From positions 1 to 36,740 of the forward strand of contig CALKDI010000106.1 of assembly GCA_938084065.1 (NCBI GenBank): a DNA stretch of 36,740 nucleotides. Direction: 5' to 3'. The notes under the pieces were generated by a model. That model had not been told where the DNA came from and made no database searches. It worked only from the letters and a program-made list of their open reading frames with translations. A program made the position numbers and the translations under genes. Source of the stretch: an uncultured Alphaproteobacteria bacterium (GTDB lineage Bacteria; Pseudomonadota; Alphaproteobacteria; Bin95). Shown here one piece after another: positions 3,570 through 32,734 of the stretch (positions within the stretch are counted from its first letter, which is position 1; the number at the start of each line of letters is the position of its first letter).

Positions 3570-5627
3570 CTATCGGGCTTCTCGCCACCACGTAAACGTC
3601 AACAGAGCAGCGCTCAGCAGTAGCGACAGCCATGTGGGCAGTAGTGGGGTCTGTGTTAGCCCCACCACATTGTGAGCGCCGTTTTGTCGCAATCCCAGCC
3701 AGCCGCGTCCGGCGGCTAAGCGGTTCGGTTGAATCTGTCTCAAGGCTGGCAAACCATCCGCCAGCCAATGGGTGCTGCCGGCATGGGTAGCCACGGTCTC
3801 TGCGAGCGGGGCGGCGCTGGCGCGCGGGTCTTCCAGCTCGCGGGCGTCCAGCACACCAACCGGAACGACGACTGTGTGCTGTCCATCCTCGACCTGATAG
3901 AGGCCGTCCGCCGCAACCGTCAGGCTTGCGCCGAAACGGCCAGGCTCCAGAACCTCCAACGGCACCGGTAAGACCGCCCCATCAGGTCCAGTCACCCGGA
4001 TTATCGGTGGAGTCTCCAGCAGGCTGTGGCGGGAGATTGTTAAGCGACTGCCGTTGGCTTCGGCCAACAGCGCCTCCTCCTCCAGCTCTGGTTCTTTCAT
4101 CAGCCAATGGGCGAGGCGCCGCAGCAACTCGCCATGCGGCCCGCCACCCTCAAAGCCGCGCGCCCAGAGCCAGATGTGATCGGACAGGAATTGCGCGACG
4201 CGTCCCTGATTGCTGGGATTGCCGACTCGGTTGAGCACCAGTAGGGGAGAATTTTCCACTCCGGCCATTAGCACCTGTCCGTCGGTAACAGACGCCTCGA
4301 TCTGGCGAAACCATCGGCCCCACTCGTCCGTGCCGGCAAGGTTGCGGGTTACGGGATGGCGCTGGCCGAGGCTGGTGACCGTTGGCCGGAAGCCTTGCTC
4401 TATGATCCGTTGCGTCGGCGCGGTCGGCATGATGTCGCCGATCGGGCTGTTGTGGACGGAGGCATAGCGGTCAGCGTAGGTCGGGCCGACGGCCACCAGA
4501 ACAGCGCCGCCGTTGCGGGCGAAATCGGCGACATTCGTCAGATACGCAGGCGAGATCAGGCCGCGCAGGGTATAGCGGTCAAAGACGATCAGATCGAATT
4601 CGTCGAGCTTTTCCTGAAATAACTGCCGGACCGGAAACGCGATCAGCGACAATTCCTCAACCGGCGTCAGGTCCTGCTTGGTCGGTGGGCGCAGGATGGT
4701 GAAGTGGACGAGGTCGACCGAGGGATCGGACTTCAACAGATTGCGCCACACGCGGCCGCCCGCATGCGGCGAGCCAGAGATCAGCAGCACACGCAGCCGG
4801 TCGCGTACCGCATTGACCGAGGCGATCACACGGTTGTTCTGCCGGGTCAATTCGGCAGGCCCATCCGCAACGACGACCTCAACCAGGGCAGAGCCGGCGC
4901 GGACCAGAGGCACTTTGAGCAGCGCTGGCGTTCCGGTCTCAACCTGGGTGCGGAGAATATCCTGGCCATCGCGGCGCACGCGAATGTCGGCCAGGGCCGG
5001 GGGGTCGCTGACACCGAGGTCATCCACCTGCACGGTGAGCATCACATCTTCGCCAACAATGCCATAGCGTGGCGCTTGCTGGAGGCTCAAACGTCGGTCG
5101 CGTTCATTTTTTTGGCCGGTCAGCAGCAGGTGCAGCGGCCCGGTTGCCTCGTTATCGCCAGGCAAATCGTGCACCTGGCCATCGCTGAGGATGATTACCC
5201 CCGCCCGACGGCTGGGCGGCACATCGGCGACTGCGCGGCGCCAGGCTTCGAACAGGCGGGTGCCTGGCACGCGAGGATCGGGAGCGCCCGCTTCGACTTC
5301 TCGCCATTCCAGGTTGGGCAGGGCTTTGGCGGCGGCGCGCAATTCGGCCAATGCAGTGTCCCGTTGAGCCGCCCGCGCGCCTATCTTCTGACTGGGAGAT
5401 ACGTCGACGATGGCGATGGCAACGTCCCTGTGCGGCTCGCGTTGTTCCTCCAGCCATTGCGGGCGGGCCAAGGCCAGCAGCAAAAAGCCAAACGCCAATG
5501 CCCGCCACAGCGTACCGCGCGCGTGCCGCCAGCCCGAGAACGCGGTCAAAGCCGCCGCCGCCGCTGCTATCACGGCAATCGCCAGCCAGGGCACGAGCGG
5601 GGCGAAGGCAAAGCTCCAATCGGTCAT
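3570..5627 (-). CDS. GATase-like membrane protein of the MoxR operon
   Basis: This is the last gene of a four-gene minus-strand operon, starting 10 bases after the DUF4159 gene ends. The 685-residue protein has two N-terminal membrane segments (LVPWLAIAVIAAAAAALTAF and LWRALAFGFLLLALARP). A degenerate von Willebrand-like beginning follows (VAIAIVDVSPSQK ... AGVIILSDGQVHDL). A class-I glutamine-amidotransferase-like fold comes next (LRVLLISGSPHAGGRVWRNLL ... FDLIVFDRYTLRG ... FARNGGAVLVAVGP), and a last membrane helix (LPTWLSLLLSAALLTFTWW). The nucleophilic Cys of true amidotransferases is not evident, so it is probably non-enzymatic. Its exact role is unknown. By context it belongs to a MoxR-dependent envelope or chaperone complex. 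Confidence 0.8.
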   Translation of the reverse strand: MTDWSFAFAPLVPWLAIAVIAAAAAALTAFSGWRHARGTLWRALAFGFLLLALARPQWLEEQREPHRDVAIAIVDVSPSQKIGARAAQRDTALAELRAAAKALPNLEWREVEAGAPDPRVPGTRLFEAWRRAVADVPPSRRAGVIILSDGQVHDLPGDNEATGPLHLLLTGQKNERDRRLSLQQAPRYGIVGEDVMLTVQVDDLGVSDPPALADIRVRRDGQDILRTQVETGTPALLKVPLVRAGSALVEVVVADGPAELTRQNNRVIASVNAVRDRLRVLLISGSPHAGGRVWRNLLKSDPSVDLVHFTILRPPTKQDLTPVEELSLIAFPVRQLFQEKLDEFDLIVFDRYTLRGLISPAYLTNVADFARNGGAVLVAVGPTYADRYASVHNSPIGDIMPTAPTQRIIEQGFRPTVTSLGQRHPVTRNLAGTDEWGRWFRQIEASVTDGQVLMAGVENSPLLVLNRVGNPSNQGRVAQFLSDHIWLWARGFEGGGPHGELLRRLAHWLMKEPELEEEALLAEANGSRLTISRHSLLETPPIIRVTGPDGAVLPVPLEVLEPGRFGASLTVAADGLYQVEDGQHTVVVPVGVLDARELEDPRASAAPLAETVATHAGSTHWLADGLPALRQIQPNRLAAGRGWLGLRQNGAHNVVGLTQTPLLPTWLSLLLSAALLTFTWWREAR

Positions 5628-5637
5628 TGGGCGCGCC

Positions 5638-8346
5638 TCACTGGCCCAGCCTTTTGAGGATATCGGGAATGTGCACCTGATCGCCTTTGTAATTCCCGGT
5701 CAGCACATGCATCACCAGATTGACGCCAAAGCGGTAGGCGAACTCCCGCTGACGCTGGCCGCCTGGGTAGACCGGATAGATTGGCCGCCAGTCCGCATCC
5801 ATCGCCCAGGCTGCGGCCCAGTCATGCCGACCGATTAGGACGCTGGTAACGCCATCCCGACTGGCGGAGGCACCGGACTCAACCCAAAGCGGCGCGCCTT
5901 CCCAGCGACCTGGAAAGTCACTGAGCAGGTAGAAGGCGCGGGTCAGGACGTGATCGGGCCGAATAGGTTGCAGCGGCGGGATGCGCACGCCCTTCAGCAG
6001 AGATTGCAGACGAATGCTGCCTGGTCCATTGGGCCCGCCGGCATCCAGGTCGCGCGTGTCAAACAGAATGGTGCCGCCGTGCTCCAAAAACGCAGAGACT
6101 CGCTCTCGCGCAGCCGGAGAGAGATCGGGCTGTGAGGGCACGATGGGCCAGTACAACAGGGGAAAGAAGGCCAGTTCTGTGGTCTCAATCTGCACGGCGA
6201 CGGGCGTTGCTGGCTCGATAGAGGTGCGGGCCGCCAGAATGTGGCTCAATCCGGCAAGCCCGGCAGCGCTGATGCGGTCGACCGAGTCATCCCCGGTCAC
6301 CACATAGGCCAAATGGGTTTCGAACGTTGCCTGCAGCGCCTGGTCGTCGGCGGCGTCTGCCGGCGCAGGCGACAGAGCTTGCAGGCTTGCCAGGGCAGCG
6401 AGAAACACAGTCGTCATGCCGCCACGCAGTCTCAGATGGCCGCGCAGGGCAAGTGAGGCGACAGTATCGGCGAGCAACAGCACCAGTGCTGTTAGCAGCA
6501 ACCACGCGCTGATGTCCTGGCTGCGGCGTTCTCCGTAACTTTGGACGGTGACACCACTCGGCCATTCAGCAATCGGTGCTAATCCGTTATCGCCTAGTGC
6601 CGGCGCTAGGTTCCAGGCAAAACGCGATTGTTGAGCGCCGTAAAAGCCGGGCGGGTGTTGCGGGCCCAGTGGGGCTGTTGCGGGTGTTGGGCGCGGCGGT
6701 AGCGCACGCACCTGCGGTTCTGGGTCCTGCAGGTGGCCAAAGCCGTCCAACACTCTCTGCGGAGGCAATTGTTGGTCGCCGGTGGTGACTGCTGCCTCAC
6801 CATGGCCCAGACGTACCAGCCGGTCGAGCATCTGCAGGAACAGGCCGGATAGCGGCAGGCTAGACCAGTCCGCGTCTGGGCTGACGTGTACCAGGACGAT
6901 CCAGCCGTCTCCGCGCTTCTTGGCTGTTACCAGCGGTGTGCCATCGGCGAGCGAGGCCCAGGTCTTGTCGCGCAAATCTGGTGCCGGCTCTGCCAGAACC
7001 TGGCGGTTGACGGTAACATCGGTTGGGATTGAAAGGCCCCAGAAGGGTGAGTGTTCGGGGAAGGGCGCTAGCCCTTGCGGCGTTTCCCAGGAAAGCGCGC
7101 CGCCCAATGTGCGGCTGGCAGGGCGCAGGCGGACCGGCAACCACGCGTCTGGCTTCTCTGCCAATCCGGGGCTGGCGAAGCGCAGCAGTAGACCGCCTTT
7201 GGCCAGCCATGTCTCGATAGTGGCGGCGAGCCCTGGGGCCGGTTGTAACCGCTCGCGCATGACCAGAATGCTGGGGCTGGCCTCCAGCAGTGTGTCGAGA
7301 CTGCCATGTTGGAACGTGGCAATGTCCGTGAAGGCTGCGCGCAAGTAGTGGGCTGGGTCGAGCAAGGGGTGGCCGGCGCGGTCGCCGCCAGCATCGACCA
7401 AGCCAACCAGGCGCCGCTGCCAGCGGTCATCCAGCAGAACGGTGCCGCCTGCGCCAGCTTGACCCGCCAATCGCAGCCGTTCCACTTGGTTGATCAGGTC
7501 GCGGGGTAGGGTCCATTCGGTGGCGGCGTGCGCCTCGCCGTCGGCAAAGGTCAGGGTAGTCGCAGCCAGCACTCGGCCGTCTGCGGCGATGGCTTGAACC
7601 TGCGCGGACCGCGGCCCAATTGCGGTCGCTCGACGGGTTGAAACACGCAACCCTCGCCCGGTGGTCTCCGGCTCGGCCAACAGCAGCGGTGGTTGGTCCG
7701 GCACGAAAACGGTGAGCCGGCCCAGGCGTTGCAGCCGTTCGGCCATGGCCTGACGGCCCGGCGTTTCCAACCCATCCGAAAGCCAGACAGCTTCGGCAGG
7801 GCTTACGAGCGGTTCGATGGATTGCAGCAGGGCCTCTCGGTCGGTTGGCCAGGGTTGCGGGTTTAATGCTCCGGCCGTGGACCGCGCGACGGTGGCAGAC
7901 TGAACCGAAGCGGCGTCTTCCGCGGTGGCCTGCATGGCCGTCGGCAGCAGCATCACGGGTTGTTCTTGGCGATCTGCCTCATCGAGGATATTGGCGAGTG
8001 CCCGTTGGCGGGCCGGCCAATTGGTCGCCGACGCCCAGCTATTATCGACGACGATGACCACCGGCCCATTGCCCTGCAAACGCTGCTGTGGTGCTAGCAC
8101 CGGGTCGGCAAGCGCCAGGATCACCAATGCCGCCAGCAGCAGCCGCAATGCCAACAGCCACCACGGCATGCGGGCAGCGCTTTCCTCTCGCGCCAGCAGG
8201 CCGGCGAGTAGGGCGATGGCGGGAAAGGCCTGACGCCGCGGCGGTGGTGGGATCAGGCGCAGCAGCCACCATAGGCCAGGCAGCGCCAAAAGCGCAGCGA
8301 GGACCCAGGGTTGGGCGAAGCCGATCAGACCGCCAATCTCAAGCAT
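5638..8346 (-). CDS. BatA-like N-terminus / DUF4159 C-terminus membrane protein
   Basis: About 902 residues. The N-terminus (LIGFAQPWVLAALLALPGLW ... LLRLIPPPPRR ... MPWWLLALRLLLAALVILAL) is the double-membrane-spanning region found in BatA-type aerotolerance proteins. A divergent VWA-like domain follows (VVIVVDNSWAS), then a middle region, another membrane span (DISAWLLLTALVLLLADTVA) and a signal-like segment. The C-terminal DUF4159 domain begins near LQATFETHLAYVVTGD and includes FLEHGGTILFDTRD and PIYPVYPGG. I start it at ATG 8346 (MLEIGGLIGF), six bases after GAGG. An upstream TTG at 8358 is possible. The start region overlaps a 16-base tandem repeat. A general role in cell-envelope stress is inferred from the MoxR/DUF58 neighbours. 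Confidence 0.85.
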   Translation of the reverse strand: MLEIGGLIGFAQPWVLAALLALPGLWWLLRLIPPPPRRQAFPAIALLAGLLAREESAARMPWWLLALRLLLAALVILALADPVLAPQQRLQGNGPVVIVVDNSWASATNWPARQRALANILDEADRQEQPVMLLPTAMQATAEDAASVQSATVARSTAGALNPQPWPTDREALLQSIEPLVSPAEAVWLSDGLETPGRQAMAERLQRLGRLTVFVPDQPPLLLAEPETTGRGLRVSTRRATAIGPRSAQVQAIAADGRVLAATTLTFADGEAHAATEWTLPRDLINQVERLRLAGQAGAGGTVLLDDRWQRRLVGLVDAGGDRAGHPLLDPAHYLRAAFTDIATFQHGSLDTLLEASPSILVMRERLQPAPGLAATIETWLAKGGLLLRFASPGLAEKPDAWLPVRLRPASRTLGGALSWETPQGLAPFPEHSPFWGLSIPTDVTVNRQVLAEPAPDLRDKTWASLADGTPLVTAKKRGDGWIVLVHVSPDADWSSLPLSGLFLQMLDRLVRLGHGEAAVTTGDQQLPPQRVLDGFGHLQDPEPQVRALPPRPTPATAPLGPQHPPGFYGAQQSRFAWNLAPALGDNGLAPIAEWPSGVTVQSYGERRSQDISAWLLLTALVLLLADTVASLALRGHLRLRGGMTTVFLAALASLQALSPAPADAADDQALQATFETHLAYVVTGDDSVDRISAAGLAGLSHILAARTSIEPATPVAVQIETTELAFFPLLYWPIVPSQPDLSPAARERVSAFLEHGGTILFDTRDLDAGGPNGPGSIRLQSLLKGVRIPPLQPIRPDHVLTRAFYLLSDFPGRWEGAPLWVESGASASRDGVTSVLIGRHDWAAAWAMDADWRPIYPVYPGGQRQREFAYRFGVNLVMHVLTGNYKGDQVHIPDILKRLGQ

Positions 8347-8383
8347 GAACAACCTCAAGCATAACCAACCTCAAGCATAAACC
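8337..8383. repeat. three-copy 16-bp tandem repeat at the DUF58/DUF4159 junction
   Basis: Copies of CCTCAAGCATAACCAA occur at 8337-8352 (variant), 8353-8368 and 8369-8383 (last copy partial/variant). The array covers the end of the DUF58 gene, the intergenic gap and the beginning of the DUF4159 gene. On the coding strand each unit carries TTGAGG, so the repeat duplicates the ribosome-binding site and an ATG-like start region. Confidence 0.85.
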
Positions 8384-9282
8384 GTCCGCCGGTCCAGTGA
8401 GATCGCCTCGTAGAGCGACAGTAGCAATGGCAGAGGTGATTGGTCGGTCAGATGGCGGCGATAGCGCCAGCCGCGCCGCTGGCAGATGGTCTCCAACCCG
8501 CGGCAGTGGGCGGCAAAGCGTTCGGCATAGGCAACGTGCAAGTCTTCTGCGCGGCGGATCAGGTGTGGCGCTTCGCCTTCCATCCCCTCCAATATGACCC
8601 GCCCCTTGAGATCAAGTCGTTCCTCGCCGGGGTCAATCACCTGGATGATATGGCCGCGCGCACCGGGGCCGGACAACAGCGCCAGGTGCCGGTCCCATTG
8701 GTCGAGCGGAGCCCAGGTATCGCCAAACGCCAGGATGGCGGAATGCCGTGGCAGGCCAGCTGCTGGCGGCAGGCTCTGGTCCGCCTTTGGCTCCAACAGA
8801 TGCTGAATCAGGCGATCCAGCGCGCGTGGGCCGGTGCCGATGGTGATAGGGCCGCTGCGGGACAGCAGGCCAACCCGCTCACCGGAACGCAGCAATAGTG
8901 CTGCCGTCGCCAAAAGCAACACAATGGCCCGCTCCAGCTTGGCCGGGCGGTCGCTGGCGCCGGCAAATTGCATGGACGGCGATTGATCGAGCCATAGCCA
9001 AAAGCTTTCGGCGGTCTGCCATTCCTGCTCTCGTACAAAATGGCGGTCGCTGCGGGCGGAGCGCCGCCAGTCGATGGACCGCACGGCATCGCCGGCGCGG
9101 TAAGGCCGAAACTGCCAAAAGCTATCGCCCGCGCCCGGCCGGCGGCGTCCGTGTGTTCCCATCGACACCGTTGCCGCGATGCGTAAGGCCTGGGCGCGCA
9201 GGTCGGGCAAGCGCGCGGCCCAATCTTCAGCAGCGCGGCGCTGGCGCCTCAGGGGAACGGGCGTAGTGGCTGTAGCGATCAC
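8371..9282 (-). CDS. DUF58 domain protein
   Basis: DUF58 proteins are almost always encoded next to MoxR ATPases and are thought to be their partner or substrate. The 303-residue product has the family signature at residues 47-80 (RRRPGAGDSFWQFRPYRAGD, then SIDWRRSARSD). It continues with LWLDQSPSM, an MIDAS-like D-x-S-x-S start of a von Willebrand-type fold. There is no membrane helix apart from a hydrophobic VLLLATAALLL segment within the fold. It starts with GTG at 9282, and its GTGA overlaps the moxR stop codon by four bases, indicating translational coupling. Confidence 0.88.
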   Translation of the reverse strand: MIATATTPVPLRRQRRAAEDWAARLPDLRAQALRIAATVSMGTHGRRRPGAGDSFWQFRPYRAGDAVRSIDWRRSARSDRHFVREQEWQTAESFWLWLDQSPSMQFAGASDRPAKLERAIVLLLATAALLLRSGERVGLLSRSGPITIGTGPRALDRLIQHLLEPKADQSLPPAAGLPRHSAILAFGDTWAPLDQWDRHLALLSGPGARGHIIQVIDPGEERLDLKGRVILEGMEGEAPHLIRRAEDLHVAYAERFAAHCRGLETICQRRGWRYRRHLTDQSPLPLLLSLYEAISLDRRTVYA

Positions 9283-10283
9283 CGTATCTCCCGGACCAGG
9301 GCGTCAATGACATCTTTGGCGGTAACGCCCTCGGCCCGTGCGACATAGGTCAGCGCGATACGATGGCGCAGCACTGGCTCAGCCAAAGCGATGACATCGT
9401 CAAGGGATGGCGCATAGCGGCCTTGCAATAGGGCGCGGGCTCGGCTGGCCAACATCAGCGCCTGTGCTGCGCGCGGGCCTGGGCCCCATTCCAAATGTTG
9501 GACCGCCTCTGGTTTGGCCTCCGCCTCACCGGGGCGTCCGGCACGGACCAGCCGAAGGATGCCGTCTAGCACCTGCTCGCCCACCGGCAATTGCCGAACC
9601 AGTTGCTGGGCCGCGGCAAGCTCAGCAGCGGTCATAGTCGCGACCGGCGACGGCTGCTCCACGCCGGTTGTGACGGTCAGGATCTTGGCTTCGGTTGCGC
9701 GGTCGGGATAGGGCACGCGAATATCGAACAAGAAGCGATCCAACTGCGCTTCTGGCAGGGGATAGGTGCCTTCCTGCTCAATCGGGTTTTGCGTCGCCAG
9801 CACGGTAAACGGGCTGGGCAGCGGGCGATCTTCGCCGGCTACAGCGACGCGCCTTTCCTGCATGGCCTGCAACAGGGCGGATTGGGTGCGGGGGCTGGCG
9901 CGGTTGATCTCGTCGGCCATCAGCAATTGCGTAAAGATGGGCCCTTCGACAAAGCGGAAATGCCGGGAGCCGTCGTCCGCCATATCCAGAACCTCTGCGC
10001 CCAGGATATCGGCTGGCATCAGGTCAGGCGTGAACTGAATCCGTTTCGACTGAAGGCCAAAAATCTGCCCCAGTGTTTCTACCAGCCGGGTTTTGCCTAG
10101 GCCCGGAACGCCGACCAACAAGGCATGACCGCCAGACAGCAGCGCGATCAACACCTGGTCAATCACATCATCCTGACCAAAGAACACCTCGCCAATAGCC
10201 TGTCGTGCGGACGCCAGTTGTGCCGTCAGTGCATCCACAGACGCGATGACCTTGTCGGCGGTGGCCTCTGTACTGTCATCCAT
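9279..10283 (-). CDS. MoxR-family AAA+ ATPase
   Basis: This is a chaperone-like ATPase that heads the operon. The 334-residue protein starting MDDSTEATADK has Walker A GVPGLGKT (residues 58-65), Walker B LLMADE (120-125), sensor-1 ATQNP and the MoxR-specific GTYPLPEAQLDRFLF segment. The lid domain ends in VRHRIALTYVAR-like sequence. I chose ATG 10283 because the conserved family region starts shortly after it. The open frame extends upstream to 10373 without conserved sequence. The promoter should lie in 10284-10481, shared with the divergent DUF1285 gene. MoxR-DUF58-DUF4159-GATase is a recognised alphaproteobacterial arrangement. Its biochemical target is not established. Confidence 0.9.
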   Translation of the reverse strand: MDDSTEATADKVIASVDALTAQLASARQAIGEVFFGQDDVIDQVLIALLSGGHALLVGVPGLGKTRLVETLGQIFGLQSKRIQFTPDLMPADILGAEVLDMADDGSRHFRFVEGPIFTQLLMADEINRASPRTQSALLQAMQERRVAVAGEDRPLPSPFTVLATQNPIEQEGTYPLPEAQLDRFLFDIRVPYPDRATEAKILTVTTGVEQPSPVATMTAAELAAAQQLVRQLPVGEQVLDGILRLVRAGRPGEAEAKPEAVQHLEWGPGPRAAQALMLASRARALLQGRYAPSLDDVIALAEPVLRHRIALTYVARAEGVTAKDVIDALVREIR

Positions 10284-10442
10284 TCCGATTTCCGTTCCGC
10301 TCCAGAAGCCAAAGGCGCGAGTATGCCGGGATTGCCTGAGTCTGGCGAGTGGCGAGTCACTCTGTTGGCGCAATGGTGATCGCCCGCACTCGCACCGGCC
10401 TTCGCGCTAGAGCGGCTATGCCTTTCCGCACGCGGCGAACAT

Positions 10443-26211: not shown

Positions 26212-29200
26212 CTATTCCGCCGCCATTGCCGTCGCGGCGGACGGGTTGCGGAAGTTCAACCACAGCGCTTCCTCGTTCGCCTTCGCATCGGCCAGGTGTT
26301 TCACCTTCACATGGCCATAGCCGCGGATATGCTCCGGAATGCTGGCGATCTCGACCGCATAGCGATGGTTGTCGCTGGAGAGGCTGGTCAGCAGATCGCC
26401 GACAGTCTTCTCGTAGTCGCGGATCAACTGGCGCTCCATCTTGCGCTCTTCAGTGCGACCGAACACATCCAACGGCGTGCCTCGCACACCGCGCATTTTG
26501 GCGAGCCAGCCGAACTTTTTCATCATGCTAGGACCGTAGGTCTTTTTCTGCGGCTCGCCAGTCACAGGATCGACCTTGGAGAGCATTGGCGGTGCCAGGT
26601 TGAATTCCAGCGTGTAATCGCCTTCGAACTGCGCCTCCAGCCCGGCCAGGAATTCCGGCCGGGAGTAGAGCCGCGCCACCTCATACTCATCCTTGTAGGC
26701 CATCAGCTTGAAGTAGTAGCGCGCCACGGCCTCGCTCAGCTTCTCGCCCAGGCCCTTCTCGGCCTCTGCAGCCCGCACCTTCTCCACCAGGTTCTGATAG
26801 CGCTTGGCATAGCGGGCGTTCTGGTAGTCGGTCAGGAAGGCGATGCGCTTGGCGACAACCTCATCCAGGGTTTGCGCGATGTCTGCCTGGCCAGTGGCTT
26901 TCTTCTCGCCGCCCAGCACATCCATAACCATGCTCAGGTTAGCAGCGCCTGCGCGGCCCCAATTGAACGAGCGTTTGTTCGACTCGATGGCCACCTCATT
27001 CAGCTCAATGGCGCGCATGATCGCCTCGGCTGACACCGGGATCATGCCCTTCTGGAAGGCATAGCCCAGCATGAACATGTTGGTGGCAATGCTGTCGCCC
27101 ATCAGGCGGGTGGCGATGTCGGTGGCGTCGAGGAAATCAACGCCTTCCTCGCCGGTTGCACTGGTGATGCGGCCCTTGATCTCCTCGGTGGGGAATTTGA
27201 AATCTGGGTCGCGGGTGAAATCACCGGTGAACTGGCGATAGCTGTTGACTACCGCCTTGCTGCCACGGGTCAGCTTCGACACCGTATCAGCCTGCCCAGA
27301 CGTCACCAGATCACAACCGATCAGCGAGCGCGCGCCGCCGCTGGCGATGCGAACCGCATGCAATTCCTCTGGCGTGTTGGCAATGCGCAGATGGCTCCAG
27401 ACGGCACCGCCCTTCTGTGCCAGCCCAGTCATGTCCATCACGGTCGAGGCTTTGCCCTCGATATGGGCGGCCATGGACAGCAGAGCACCGATGGTAATGA
27501 CGCCAGTGCCACCAATGCCGGTGATCATGATGCCGAAGGGTTTCTCCAGCGTCGGGATGTCCGGCACGGGGAACAGGTGCGGCGGCTCTTGGCCCTCAAC
27601 ACCTTTCGACTTGCGCGGCTTGCCACCCTTGACCGTCACAAACGACGGGCAGAAGCCGTTCACGCACGAGAAATCTTTGTTGCAAGACGATTGGTCGATC
27701 TTGCGCTTGCGGCCAAACTCCGTGTCGATTGGCGCGACAGAGACACAGTTCGACTTGACGCCGCAATCGCCACAGCCCTCGCACACAGCCTCGTTGATGA
27801 AGATGCGCTTGTCCGGATCGGGGAACAGGCCCCGCTTGCGCCGCCGGCGTTTTTCCGCCGCACAAGTCTGGATGTAGATGAGGCAGGTAACGCCCGCGAC
27901 CTCGCGCAACTCCCGCTGCACCTTGTCCAGCTCGGCACGCTCGAAGGTTTTGGTGCCCGGTGGCCAGGTGGCGTTTTCCGGCAGGTCTTCTTTCTCGTCA
28001 TAGACGATAGTGACGCGCTTCACGCCTTCCGACCAGACCTGGTGTGCCATCTGCACGGGGTCGAGCGGCCCGTCATGGCTCTGCCCGCCGGTCATCGCGA
28101 CGGCGTCATTGTATAGGATTTTGTAGGTCATGTTCGTGCCGGCAGAAACTGCCGCACGGATGGCCAACAGGCCGGAATGGTAATACGTGCCGTCGCCCAG
28201 GTTTTGGAAAATATGCGGCGTATCGACGAACGGCGCTTGCCCGGTCCAGTTAACGCCCTCTGCGCCCATGTGGGTAAAGCCGGCGGTGGAGCGATCCATC
28301 CACATGGCCATGTAATGGCAGCCAATGCCAGCGCCGGCACGTGAGCCCTCCGGCACCTTGGTTGACGTGTTGTGCGGGCAGCCAGAGCAGAAATACGGGG
28401 TCCGCACCATACTGGGCGGTTGGTTGCCGCCGGTGCTGGCGGTCAGCGCATCCATGCCGGCCAGCCGCTCGCCGATGCGGGCGCGTAGCTCGCTGGGGAT
28501 CTGGTCGTTGTCCAGCAGGCGGGCGATCACGCGGGCGATCATGCCGGGGGTCAGTTCGCCATTGGACTGCAATAGCGGTGCGCCGGAGCGATCTGTCTTG
28601 CCTAGGATTTCCGGGCGGCGGTCGGCAGGTACGCTGTAGAGCGCATCCTTCAACTGCCATTCCATCAGCGAACGTTTTTCCTCGACCACGAGCAGGGTTT
28701 CCAAGCCTTCGGCGAATGCCTTGGCGCCTTCGGTCTCAAGCGGCCAGGTCATTGCGACCTTGTAGACGGCGAGGCCAATGCTGGCCGCCGTAGCCTCATC
28801 AATACCCAGGTCGTCCAGTGCCTGACGCACGTCCAAGTACGATTTTCCGGTGGTGACGATGCCGATGCGTCGCTGCGGCCCGCTCCAGATCACGCGGTCC
28901 AGGCGGTTGGCGCGGGCATAGGCCAGGGCTGCGGGCAGTTTATACTTGTGCAGAATTTCCTCAAGCATGAGGAACTCCGCCACGATCAGCTTGGAATTCA
29001 ACCCGCCTTCCGGCATCTCAAAGTCGGTCGGAATGATGGGCTTTACCCGGTTCGGATCGACCGAGACCGTCGCCGCACTATCCACCGTCTCGCCAATGCA
29101 TTTGAAGCCGGTCCACAGGCCGGAAAAGCGGCTCATAGCAAAACCGTGCAGACCCAGATCCAGGAATTCCTGCACGCCTGAGGGAGCGATTACCGGGATA

Positions 29201-29727
29201 TAAGCATCGACGAACGCATATTCGCTCTGATGCGCGCTGGTAGAGGATTTGGCCATGTGATCGTCGCCAGCAAACGCCAGCACGCCACCATTCTTTAGCG
29301 TGCCAGCCGCGTTCGCGTGTTTGAAGGCATCACCGGAGCGATCGACGCCCGGGCCCTTGCCATACCAAATGCCAAAGACGCCATCATGCTTGCCATCACC
29401 ATACAGGCCCGATTGCTGCGAGCCCCACACTGCCGTTGCCGCCAGATCCTCGTTCACGCCTGGGCGGAACAGGATTTGGTTTTCTTTCAGCAGCTTGTGC
29501 GATTTGGCCAATTGTTGATCATAGGCGCCCAGCGGTGATCCGCGATAGCCAGTGATAAAGCCAGCCGTGTTCAGCCCCGCGGCCTTATCCCGACGGTGCT
29601 GATCCATCGGCAGCCGCACCAGCGCTTGCGTGCCGGTCATGAATACCAGCCCATCTTCGGCGGTGTATTTGTCGTCGAGGGATACGTCGTTCAGCTTTGG
29701 CGCAGTCGCGCTGCCAGTATCGGCCAT
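26212..29727 (-). CDS. indolepyruvate ferredoxin oxidoreductase (fused alpha/beta/gamma)
   Basis: Oxidatively decarboxylates aryl 2-oxo acids such as indolepyruvate, using TPP, CoA and ferredoxin. About 1171 residues from ATG 29727 (MADTGSATAPK), which follows GAGGAC. The N-terminal pyruvate:ferredoxin oxidoreductase domain has GYRGSPLGAYDQQL. The TPP-binding domain has YFCSGCPHNTSTKVPEGSRA and GIGCHYMA. A four-Cys iron-sulfur motif, VCEGCGDCGVKSNC, lies near residue 647, with a second cluster in SCNKDFSCVNGFCPS. The gamma domain has MITGIGGTGVITIGALLSMA. A C-terminal DUF6537 region completes it. All Cys ligands appear present. It is divergent from an LLM oxidoreductase, with a palindromic operator between. 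Confidence 0.93.
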   Translation of the reverse strand: MADTGSATAPKLNDVSLDDKYTAEDGLVFMTGTQALVRLPMDQHRRDKAAGLNTAGFITGYRGSPLGAYDQQLAKSHKLLKENQILFRPGVNEDLAATAVWGSQQSGLYGDGKHDGVFGIWYGKGPGVDRSGDAFKHANAAGTLKNGGVLAFAGDDHMAKSSTSAHQSEYAFVDAYIPVIAPSGVQEFLDLGLHGFAMSRFSGLWTGFKCIGETVDSAATVSVDPNRVKPIIPTDFEMPEGGLNSKLIVAEFLMLEEILHKYKLPAALAYARANRLDRVIWSGPQRRIGIVTTGKSYLDVRQALDDLGIDEATAASIGLAVYKVAMTWPLETEGAKAFAEGLETLLVVEEKRSLMEWQLKDALYSVPADRRPEILGKTDRSGAPLLQSNGELTPGMIARVIARLLDNDQIPSELRARIGERLAGMDALTASTGGNQPPSMVRTPYFCSGCPHNTSTKVPEGSRAGAGIGCHYMAMWMDRSTAGFTHMGAEGVNWTGQAPFVDTPHIFQNLGDGTYYHSGLLAIRAAVSAGTNMTYKILYNDAVAMTGGQSHDGPLDPVQMAHQVWSEGVKRVTIVYDEKEDLPENATWPPGTKTFERAELDKVQRELREVAGVTCLIYIQTCAAEKRRRRKRGLFPDPDKRIFINEAVCEGCGDCGVKSNCVSVAPIDTEFGRKRKIDQSSCNKDFSCVNGFCPSFVTVKGGKPRKSKGVEGQEPPHLFPVPDIPTLEKPFGIMITGIGGTGVITIGALLSMAAHIEGKASTVMDMTGLAQKGGAVWSHLRIANTPEELHAVRIASGGARSLIGCDLVTSGQADTVSKLTRGSKAVVNSYRQFTGDFTRDPDFKFPTEEIKGRITSATGEEGVDFLDATDIATRLMGDSIATNMFMLGYAFQKGMIPVSAEAIMRAIELNEVAIESNKRSFNWGRAGAANLSMVMDVLGGEKKATGQADIAQTLDEVVAKRIAFLTDYQNARYAKRYQNLVEKVRAAEAEKGLGEKLSEAVARYYFKLMAYKDEYEVARLYSRPEFLAGLEAQFEGDYTLEFNLAPPMLSKVDPVTGEPQKKTYGPSMMKKFGWLAKMRGVRGTPLDVFGRTEERKMERQLIRDYEKTVGDLLTSLSSDNHRYAVEIASIPEHIRGYGHVKVKHLADAKANEEALWLNFRNPSAATAMAAE

Positions 29728-29748
29728 GGTGGTCCTCGTCGGTCGCGA

Positions 29749-29765
29749 ATGGTGAATTTCACCAT
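29749..29765. promoter_or_regulatory. 17-bp perfect palindrome in the divergent IOR/LLM promoter
   Basis: ATGGTGAA-T-TTCACCAT lies 21 bases upstream of the indolepyruvate oxidoreductase start. On the minus strand it directly follows a TATATA-like -10 element (about 29767-29772). This is the geometry of a repressor operator overlapping the transcription start. The regulator is not identifiable here. Confidence 0.6.
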
Positions 29766-29831
29766 CATATATAGGCAATTCGAACTGGTGAGGGTACCGT
29801 TGATTCCAACAAACCTGATGAGGACACGCCC

Positions 29832-30825: not shown

Positions 30826-31068
30826 ATGACAAAGCAACTCCTGCATCTGGTGTTTGGCGGTCGGCTGCAAGACCCGCACAGCCGTACATTCGAAGATGTC
30901 GAAGGCCTGGATATCGTCGGCATGTTCCCCGATTACGCCAGCGCCCACAAAGCTTGGCGCGGCAAGGCCCAAGCCACCATCGACGACGCTGAAATGCGCT
31001 ACTTCATCGTGCACTTGCACCGCCTGTTTGATCCGGCCACGGACGAGCATCCCATCGCGGGGCAATGA
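30826..31068 (+). CDS. DUF4170 domain protein
   Basis: An 80-residue protein recognisable by LLHLVFGGRLQDPHSRTFED, DIVGMFPDYASAHKAWRGKA and the C-terminal DAEMRYFIVHLHRLFDP. DUF4170 proteins are small, cytosolic and of unknown function in alphaproteobacteria. AAGGA at 30817-30820 region supports ATG 30826. An in-frame upstream start at 30742 lacks conserved sequence. It is a single gene with 124 bases of leader after the LLM gene. Confidence 0.85.
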   Translation: MTKQLLHLVFGGRLQDPHSRTFEDVEGLDIVGMFPDYASAHKAWRGKAQATIDDAEMRYFIVHLHRLFDPATDEHPIAGQ

Positions 31069-31103
31069 TGCTCGTTGCCGTGCGCTAGTCATCCGACGCT
31101 ACA

Positions 31104-31128
31104 GCCATCATATCTAAGATACGATGGC
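31104..31128. other. 11-bp imperfect inverted repeat downstream of DUF4170
   Basis: GCCATCATATC-TAA-GATACGATGGC has one mismatched pair and lies 36 bases after the DUF4170 stop codon. No T-tract follows (ATGCCGGCG), so it may be an operator or a weak terminator. Confidence 0.35.
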
Positions 31129-31134
31129 ATGCCG

Positions 31135-31440
31135 GCGTGGAAGAGAGACGTCCATTATGATTTAATAGAATTTTCAAATTTCGACGTACAATACTATCAA
31201 AAAAATCCAGGAAAGGCACTGCCGAAATTTTTCGTATCCATACAAAAATACCACATTGAAATATTTTACACTGTTAACCATCTTTTACAAAATTGCGCCA
31301 CAATTCTCTTTTTTCTATATAAATTCTTTTAAACATCTATTTGATTCAATTCAAACATCAAATTTGGCACGTTTTATGCATCAGTCGGCTAACAAGTGAC
31401 AATAATGTTCGTTTGCGTCGTAGATCAACTTTGACAAAAG
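31135..31440. promoter_or_regulatory. AT-rich regulatory island upstream of the PEP-CTERM gene
   Basis: About 300 bases with visibly high AT content (poly-A/poly-T runs) inside an otherwise GC-rich window. It contains two TTTTACA direct repeats at 31264-31270 and 31283-31289 and TTAACCAT (CtrA half-site) at 31274-31281. The sigma-54 promoter lies near its right end. I see no convincing gene in it. It probably holds the activator binding sites for the PEP-CTERM gene. Confidence 0.5.
31365..31380 (+). promoter_or_regulatory. sigma-54 (-24/-12) promoter of the PEP-CTERM gene
   Basis: TGGCACG-TTTT-ATGCA has the invariant GG at 31366-31367 and GC at 31378-31379, separated by exactly ten bases. 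It matches the consensus TGGCACG-N4-TTGCA with one substitution. Predicted transcription starts near 31391, giving a leader of about 60 bases. PEP-CTERM genes in other bacteria are controlled by RpoN with the PrsK/PrsR two-component system. Confidence 0.75.
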
Positions 31441-31451
31441 GTGAGAAATCG

Positions 31452-32588
31452 ATGCAATTACTCAGATATGTTTCGACTGGCGCAATGGTCGCCGGTTTAG
31501 CCCTGGCAATGGCGCAGCCTGCGTCGGCCGGGCCGTTTGTGCCCGGGTTTACAGTACTGCCCTCCGGTCCACCACCGGTAGTCCTGCCGCCGCCGGATCC
31601 GGTGCCCAGCAAGGAATACTCGAACGGCAATTGCGAGGTTGGCGCACCGGCAGGCCCGATACCGCCGGCGGGTGCGTGTCCTAACGGCACCCTAGGCGAT
31701 CGCAGCGCAACAGGTCCTGCAGTGGCTGACCCCGGGCAGGTGATCGGCTGGGATGGGCAAAGGCCGGGCGGAGTTGCGGACTGGACCGATTTTTCCGGTA
31801 CAGTTTCCGGTCTGAATGACAACCAGATGCAGATTGATGGCCTGGCCAACAACAACGACGTCTTTTGGGGCGGGGTTGTCGGTGATACCGTCCATATGCT
31901 GTTTTCGACCGATGCGGATCATCGTATTTTTTGGGAAACACCGGGCGCTCCGATGCACGGAGTCTGGGCCGATGGGCAACCGCCTTATAGCCCCGGTGTT
32001 AATGGCGGCAATGACATAGACCAGCATGGCGTCAATGATGTCGATGGCTTGGAGATTTGGGGCCCACGCAGACCGGAAGCGCCGGATGCCGACCGCTTCT
32101 CTCTGGAGAGCGGCACCCATACCGGCACTGCCGATCCGCTGGGCATTTCGGTCTGGGCATCGCCAGGGCCAGGGGCTCCGGCAGCGCCGTTTTGGTCTAC
32201 TGCTGAAATTGCGGCGGCTATTCTCGCCGCCAGCGGAGAGGAGATCAACGAGGCTATGATCGATTTGGACGCGATGATGGTGTCCGGCAACAATCTGTTG
32301 TTCAGTGTCGATCCGGTCGACGATATTCTGGATGGCGGTGAGATCTTTGTCGCATTCCGTGCTGGCGGGTTCGGGAGCTTCGGTGCTGCGGGTGACACCG
32401 CGCATTATCTGTTCCATGGCGGCCATCTGTGGAACACCGAATTCGAGGTGATGGCCACCTACAACACCGCATCCGAAAACATCAACGCCCTAGAAGCGGC
32501 CAACATCCCTGAGCCTGCGACCTGGGGCATTGCAGTGTTGGGCCTTGCTGGTATCGGTATGGCCCGCCGGTGGCAACGGAGCGGCTGA
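31452..32588 (+). CDS. PEP-CTERM sorting-domain extracellular protein
   Basis: 378 residues. N-terminal signal peptide MQLLRYVSTGAMVAGLALAM...QPASA is followed by a Pro-rich segment, two cysteines (NCEVG...ACPNG) and a large Asp/Gly-rich region. The C-terminal PEP-CTERM tripartite signal consists of the motif IPEPATW, a hydrophobic helix (GIAVLGLAGIGMA) and a basic end (RRWQRSG). An exosortase elsewhere in the genome is expected to cleave it. AAGGTGAG precedes ATG 31452. An upstream in-frame start at 31341 would precede the sigma-54 transcription start, so it is rejected. Its function is presumably surface or exopolysaccharide-associated. The central domain is not recognised. Confidence 0.88.
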   Translation: MQLLRYVSTGAMVAGLALAMAQPASAGPFVPGFTVLPSGPPPVVLPPPDPVPSKEYSNGNCEVGAPAGPIPPAGACPNGTLGDRSATGPAVADPGQVIGWDGQRPGGVADWTDFSGTVSGLNDNQMQIDGLANNNDVFWGGVVGDTVHMLFSTDADHRIFWETPGAPMHGVWADGQPPYSPGVNGGNDIDQHGVNDVDGLEIWGPRRPEAPDADRFSLESGTHTGTADPLGISVWASPGPGAPAAPFWSTAEIAAAILAASGEEINEAMIDLDAMMVSGNNLLFSVDPVDDILDGGEIFVAFRAGGFGSFGAAGDTAHYLFHGGHLWNTEFEVMATYNTASENINALEAANIPEPATWGIAVLGLAGIGMARRWQRSG

Positions 32589-32627: not shown

Positions 32628-32655
32628 GCGGCCGTCCTTGGGCGGTCGCCTTTTT
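32628..32655 (+). terminator. rho-independent terminator of the PEP-CTERM gene
   Basis: GCGGCCGTC and GGCGGTCGC pair over nine bases (two G-U pairs) around CTTG and are followed by C and five T. It lies 39 bases after the stop codon and isolates the PEP-CTERM gene from the sulfatase gene. Confidence 0.7.
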
Positions 32656-32734
32656 GGGTTGGAGATCGCGGCTGGGCGCGAATAGGGTAGGGTCGTTGCT
32701 GACATCTTGCCGCCATCCCGCCGGAGCCCGCCCC

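Follow-up and report, generated by a model that had tools for sequence, protein, structure and literature searches.

A candidate sigma-54-type PEP-CTERM box in an uncultured alphaproteobacterium whose assembly yields no exosortase, PrsK or PrsR

INTRODUCTION

A PEP-CTERM gene that carries a two-part, sigma-54-type control region, in a genome assembly where the usual exosortase and activator genes are not found, raises the question of what switches such a gene on and what processes its product. The switch itself has been known for the PEP-CTERM class since 2006, when Haft et al. described a two-part box before proteobacterial PEP-CTERM genes (PMC1569441). Motif 1 of this box is 17 nt long, has TTTACA at its end, and is repeated in some cases, for example in Rhodospirillum rubrum; a spacer of 62.8 +/- 10.6 nt (range 32-92) separates it from the sigma-54 motif 2, which lies on average 71 nt from the start codon (PMC1569441). 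The box was found on 99 of 167 PEP-CTERM genes, PrsR was proposed as the activator at motif 1, and two genomic regularities were reported: exosortase and PEP-CTERM genes co-occur almost without exception, and the exosortase, prsK, prsR and polysaccharide genes are usually clustered (PMC1569441). Here, we examine one such gene in a 36,740-nucleotide stretch of DNA (the window), contig C106 in the 4.02-Mb assembly of an uncultured alphaproteobacterium (399 contigs, 93.9% complete, 0.8% contamination).

RESULTS

The gene (31452-32588, + strand), defined by translation and by profile and relative searches, encodes a protein of 378 aa and is preceded by a directly read ribosome-binding site, AAAGGTGAG (31437-31445, +). 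Its predicted signal peptide of 26 aa (31452-31529, +), read by eye as MQLLRYVSTGAMVAGLALAMAQPASA/GP, has a typical-looking end (...PASA/GP). The PEP-CTERM tail PEPATWGIAVLGLAGIGMARRW (32505-32570, +; residues 352-373) matched the PF07589 profile at 23.1 bits, over the cut-off of 20.7, and the older TIGR02595 model gave 12.1 bits, under its cut-off of 16. Hence, the PEP-CTERM tail claimed in a preliminary description of the locus holds by profile, and the signal peptide claimed there looks probable by eye. A terminator-like stem-loop with a T-rich tail follows at 32628-32656 (+; stem at 32628-32649 by hairpin reading), so the gene looks like a single-gene unit. No relatives of the protein body were found in a pattern scan of 84,980 genomes, which detects close relatives only, or in the family's 13 other genomes, plasmids, viral contigs and PDB sequences; AlphaFold, run on the single sequence, returned a mean pLDDT of 33. 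Elsewhere in the window lie a large oxidoreductase gene (26212-29778), whose closest match, at 66% on the amino acid level, is from an uncultured alphaproteobacterium, and an operon-like run (3570-10373) of genes for a MoxR-type ATPase, a DUF58 protein, a BatA/DUF4159 protein and a 684-aa protein without a Pfam match.

Upstream, 383 non-coding bases (31069-31451, +) separate the gene from a small gene that ends at 31068. By base composition, this intergenic region is 64% AT, rising to approximately 70% within 31140-31390, and the 250 bases from 31161 are the AT peak of the whole window (70.8%, against a window mean of 39.6% and sd of 5.0%). It holds two candidate PrsR sites, CATTGAAATATTTTACA (31254-31270, +) and, 19 bases further on, GTTAACCATCTTTTACA (31273-31289, +), identified by pattern comparison with the published motif 1 (PMC1569441), the likeness being judged on the TTTACA end alone of the 17-nt motif. 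On the + strand of the whole window, TTTTACA occurs only within these sites, at 31264 and 31283, and two copies in one shuffled intergenic region were infrequent (P = 0.006). The AT-rich upstream DNA with repeated TTTTACA, pointed out previously, is thus confirmed, and its apparent match to motif 1 strengthens the reading of this region as a PEP-CTERM box.

The second part of the putative box is the -24/-12 element TGGCACGTTTTATGCA (31365-31380, +), recognized by direct reading, pattern scan and shuffling, in which GG (31366-31367) and GC (31378-31379) are spaced by N10. It lies 75 nt beyond the 3'-most motif 1 copy and ends 71 nt ahead of the ATG at 31452, distances that both fit the published values (PMC1569441), and its position places the predicted transcription start near 31391. 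The window has no other exact match to TGGCACRN5TGCW. When the 383-base region was Markov-shuffled 20,000 times, the full consensus, TGGCAC-N6-TGCW, had a probability of 0.00035 (0.035%) and the composite of TTTACA, spacer and sigma-54 element one of 0.00015 (0.015%), whereas the bare GG-N10-GC had one of 0.30; the significance therefore rests on the flanking consensus and not on GG/GC alone. With that proviso, the near-perfect element described before is real.

Across the 4.02 Mb, TTTACA-N62-92-TGGC-N8-TGCW had five matches and its reversed control 1+1 (one per strand), an enrichment that is partly circular because the pattern was devised after both of the genes concerned had been seen. Specifically, two of the five stand directly before PEP-CTERM genes (the present gene and one on C286), with the sigma-54 part starting approximately 90 bases ahead, and the remaining three lie inside open frames. 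Independent support comes from the agreement of motif, order and distances with the published description, as far as pattern comparison can tell. A chance match of the sigma-54 element was rejected on the shuffled-copy probabilities together with these genome-wide composite counts.

The genome contains 13 PEP-CTERM tails over the Pfam cut-off, to which TIGR02595 adds one (C340) and a tail just under the Pfam cut-off another (C272), for a set of approximately 15. In an all-against-all comparison, the similarity among these 15 proteins was almost wholly in the tail, with little or none outside it, which we take to indicate a common sorting signal; the tails themselves vary (PEP, SEP, DEP, VPGPA). 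The search for other genes under the same promoter led to the gene on C286, and among PEP-CTERM genes with enough readable upstream DNA, only that one and the present gene carry the box. Two others, on C41 and C179, lack the sigma-54 box and have in common a 28-base near-palindrome, TGTCCAwTTTT...ATTGGACA, approximately 95-131 bases before their starts (C41:3418-3445 and C179:4566-4593). A search of the 4 Mb allowing up to three mismatches gave no further copy, and the palindrome is a candidate operator of another regulator. With the box on one pair of genes and the palindrome on another, the PEP-CTERM genes here probably answer to two or more controls. Separately, three PEP-CTERM contigs carry a repeat of 116-139 bases (98-100% identical; C286:1-139, C260:1087-1225, C340:1-116), which may be the terminus of a mobile element; in two cases it precedes a PEP-CTERM gene, and in the third it is at the contig end. 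The PEP-CTERM contigs retrieved have similar G+C contents (57-62%), which do not suggest a foreign contig while still being compatible with one.

The preliminary description had further pointed to an exosortase/PrsK-PrsR-RpoN system, a proposal that is borne out in part when the genome is searched with profiles and protein sequences. Specifically, rpoN is present (PF04552, E 1.4e-63, contig C234), but exosortase, PrsK and PrsR were not found in the assembly: PF09721 had 0 matches, the XrtA-EpsI protein of a classmate genome (G014) used as query had none, no protein passed the PrsR cut-off of 502.6 bits, and the best PrsK match reached 79 bits against a cut-off of 300. The PrsR and PrsK models suit this class, as they score approximately 160-440 bits over their cut-offs in two classmates, G014 and G070. 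The best PrsR-model matches here were NtrX (344 bits; C152) and NtrC (325-334 bits; C68), and both were ruled out as PrsR, each being assigned by its own model above that model's cut-off. A third sigma-54 activator, of 651 aa, is encoded on C183 next to an ABC transporter gene. This activator gene (GAF-type or similar; L153:5307-7262) is divergent from the transporter gene, at whose start there is a consensus sigma-54 site (C183:11180-11195; L153:5181-5196).

The XrtA-type polysaccharide operon was likewise not found in the assembly, where the proteins tested gave partial similarities only, namely glycosyltransferase and polysaccharide deacetylase-like matches on separate contigs. One TIGR03087-like glycosyltransferase gene lies close to the end of its contig (C85:25966-26940); it was rejected as a remnant of the operon, with 196.6 bits against a cut-off of 316.65 and the other XrtA operon genes not found. 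The lack of an exosortase or prsR, which had been named beforehand as evidence against the proposed system, is thus what the assembly gives, but at 93.9% completeness in 399 contigs it does not settle the question.

Among 77 sampled genomes, PF09721 found an exosortase in 11, all of them classmates outside the family, in a search that picked up matches as weak as E = 1e-16 and also an archaeal exosortase. The 13 other family genomes had no exosortase and no PEP-CTERM match, so either this lineage acquired the system or the other ones lost it. The alphaproteobacterial assignment of the host stands. The suggestion that such systems are less commonly reported in Alphaproteobacteria is weak, given those 11 genomes and the 2006 listing of R. 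rubrum (with prsK, prsR, prsT and exosortase) and Acidiphilium cryptum (with 14 PEP-CTERM genes).

In G014, TTTACA-63 nt-TTGGCATGGGATATGCA stands ahead of a PEP-CTERM gene on contig C23, near XrtA, PrsT and XrtA polysaccharide operon genes, and PrsK (741 bits) and PrsR (713 bits) follow approximately 9 kb further along. This promoter and its neighbors indicate that this class genuinely has elements of this type and that their usual partners are known.

DISCUSSION

Our results probably describe a standard PEP-CTERM gene controlled by PrsR and RpoN, in an assembly from which the XrtA/prs locus is missing. The DNA itself shows the gene, its tail and the two-part element, and the genome has rpoN, whereas we infer the activator, the exosortase and what becomes of the protein. 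The protein would be secreted and made on demand. A PrsR-type activator would occupy the two TTTTACA-ended sites, which lie some 75-95 bases before the -24/-12 element, and by looping of the AT-rich DNA in between it could drive RpoN-RNA polymerase from a start near 31391. The signal peptide would then export the protein, the hydrophobic/basic tail would hold it in the inner membrane, and an exosortase would cut at the PEP site, after which the protein may associate with exopolysaccharide.

Gaps in the assembly best account for the absence of partners, a preference that we infer from gene arrangement. PEP-CTERM genes are scattered and therefore survive gaps, whereas their partners are clustered (PMC1569441; G014), so that the loss or mis-binning of one stretch might be enough to take out every one of them. 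As prsK, prsR, exosortase and XrtA polysaccharide genes are normally close neighbors, the activator and exosortase genes are probably on the part that is missing, approximately 6% of the genome. Further, the boxes and many substrates are intact, which speaks for a system that functions.

The same evidence bears on the alternative that the partners are truly lost or absent, with NtrC, NtrX or the GAF-type activator of C183 driving the gene and the tail serving as a plain membrane anchor or being the target of an unrelated protease. In a 93.9% complete genome every expected partner is missing together, no exosortase was seen in the family, three other sigma-54 activators are at hand, and Chlorobium tepidum was listed in 2006 with PEP-CTERM but without EpsH. 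We nevertheless consider this unlikely, in view of the approximately 15 PEP-CTERM genes and two intact boxes that have been kept, the near-constant co-occurrence with exosortase (PMC1569441), and the clustering that lets one gap remove every partner. Somewhat less likely again is a more radical version, in which approximately 15 PEP-CTERM proteins, including two under the box, form a working set that the lineage keeps without exosortase or PrsR, a different enzyme and activator having taken over and a second regulator acting at the palindrome before two further genes. A genuine absence of exosortase and PrsR would be an exception to one of the strictest gene co-occurrence rules for protein sorting in bacteria, and one would then have to ask what processes the PEP-CTERM tails.

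Exosortase families are diverse, and a divergent or new exosortase with a PrsR-like activator might score below the models used. The varied tails and the TIGR03087-like glycosyltransferase on C85 are in line with such partners. This is improbable to a still greater degree, as PF09721 recovered exosortases in 11 of the 77 genomes, some through weak matches, and an archaeal one, and the PrsR and PrsK of classmates scored far over their cut-offs, where the best matches here were NtrX and NtrC. Least credible of all is that the sigma-54-like element arose by chance and a sigma-70-type promoter drives the gene: promoter-like words are plentiful in AT-rich DNA, a weak sigma-70-like pair (31265-31293) overlaps the first TTTACA, and GG-N10-GC alone is common by chance, but the probabilities for the full element and the composite, and the same composite ahead of the C286 PEP-CTERM gene and of one in G014, favor sigma-54 over that weak pair.

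We prefer the missing-locus reading. The gene adds a clear example from the Alphaproteobacteria to the PEP-CTERM box of 2006, and none of the 13 other sampled genomes of its family shows the system. As in the published system (PMC1569441), a single gene lies behind a long intergenic region that has a repeated, TTTACA-ended motif 1, a spacer within the range, and a sigma-54 motif 2 placed 71 nt before the start codon. Unlike that system, PrsK and PrsR were not found in the assembly, and the box is on a minority of the PEP-CTERM genes rather than on 99/167. The G014 locus shares the two-part promoter before a PEP-CTERM gene and differs in having its XrtA, polysaccharide, PrsT, PrsK and PrsR genes complete and nearby. 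Finally, pepA of Aquincola tertiaricarbonis belongs to another organism, with a known prsT, prsK, prsR and exopolysaccharide cluster (PMC9850573), and resembles the present gene in its promoter. It is likewise a PEP-CTERM gene, an enhancer-like sequence lies upstream, and its promoter, with a TGGCAC -24 element (TGGCAC/CTGCTT) and a mapped start, is RpoN1-dependent by experiment (PMC9850573).
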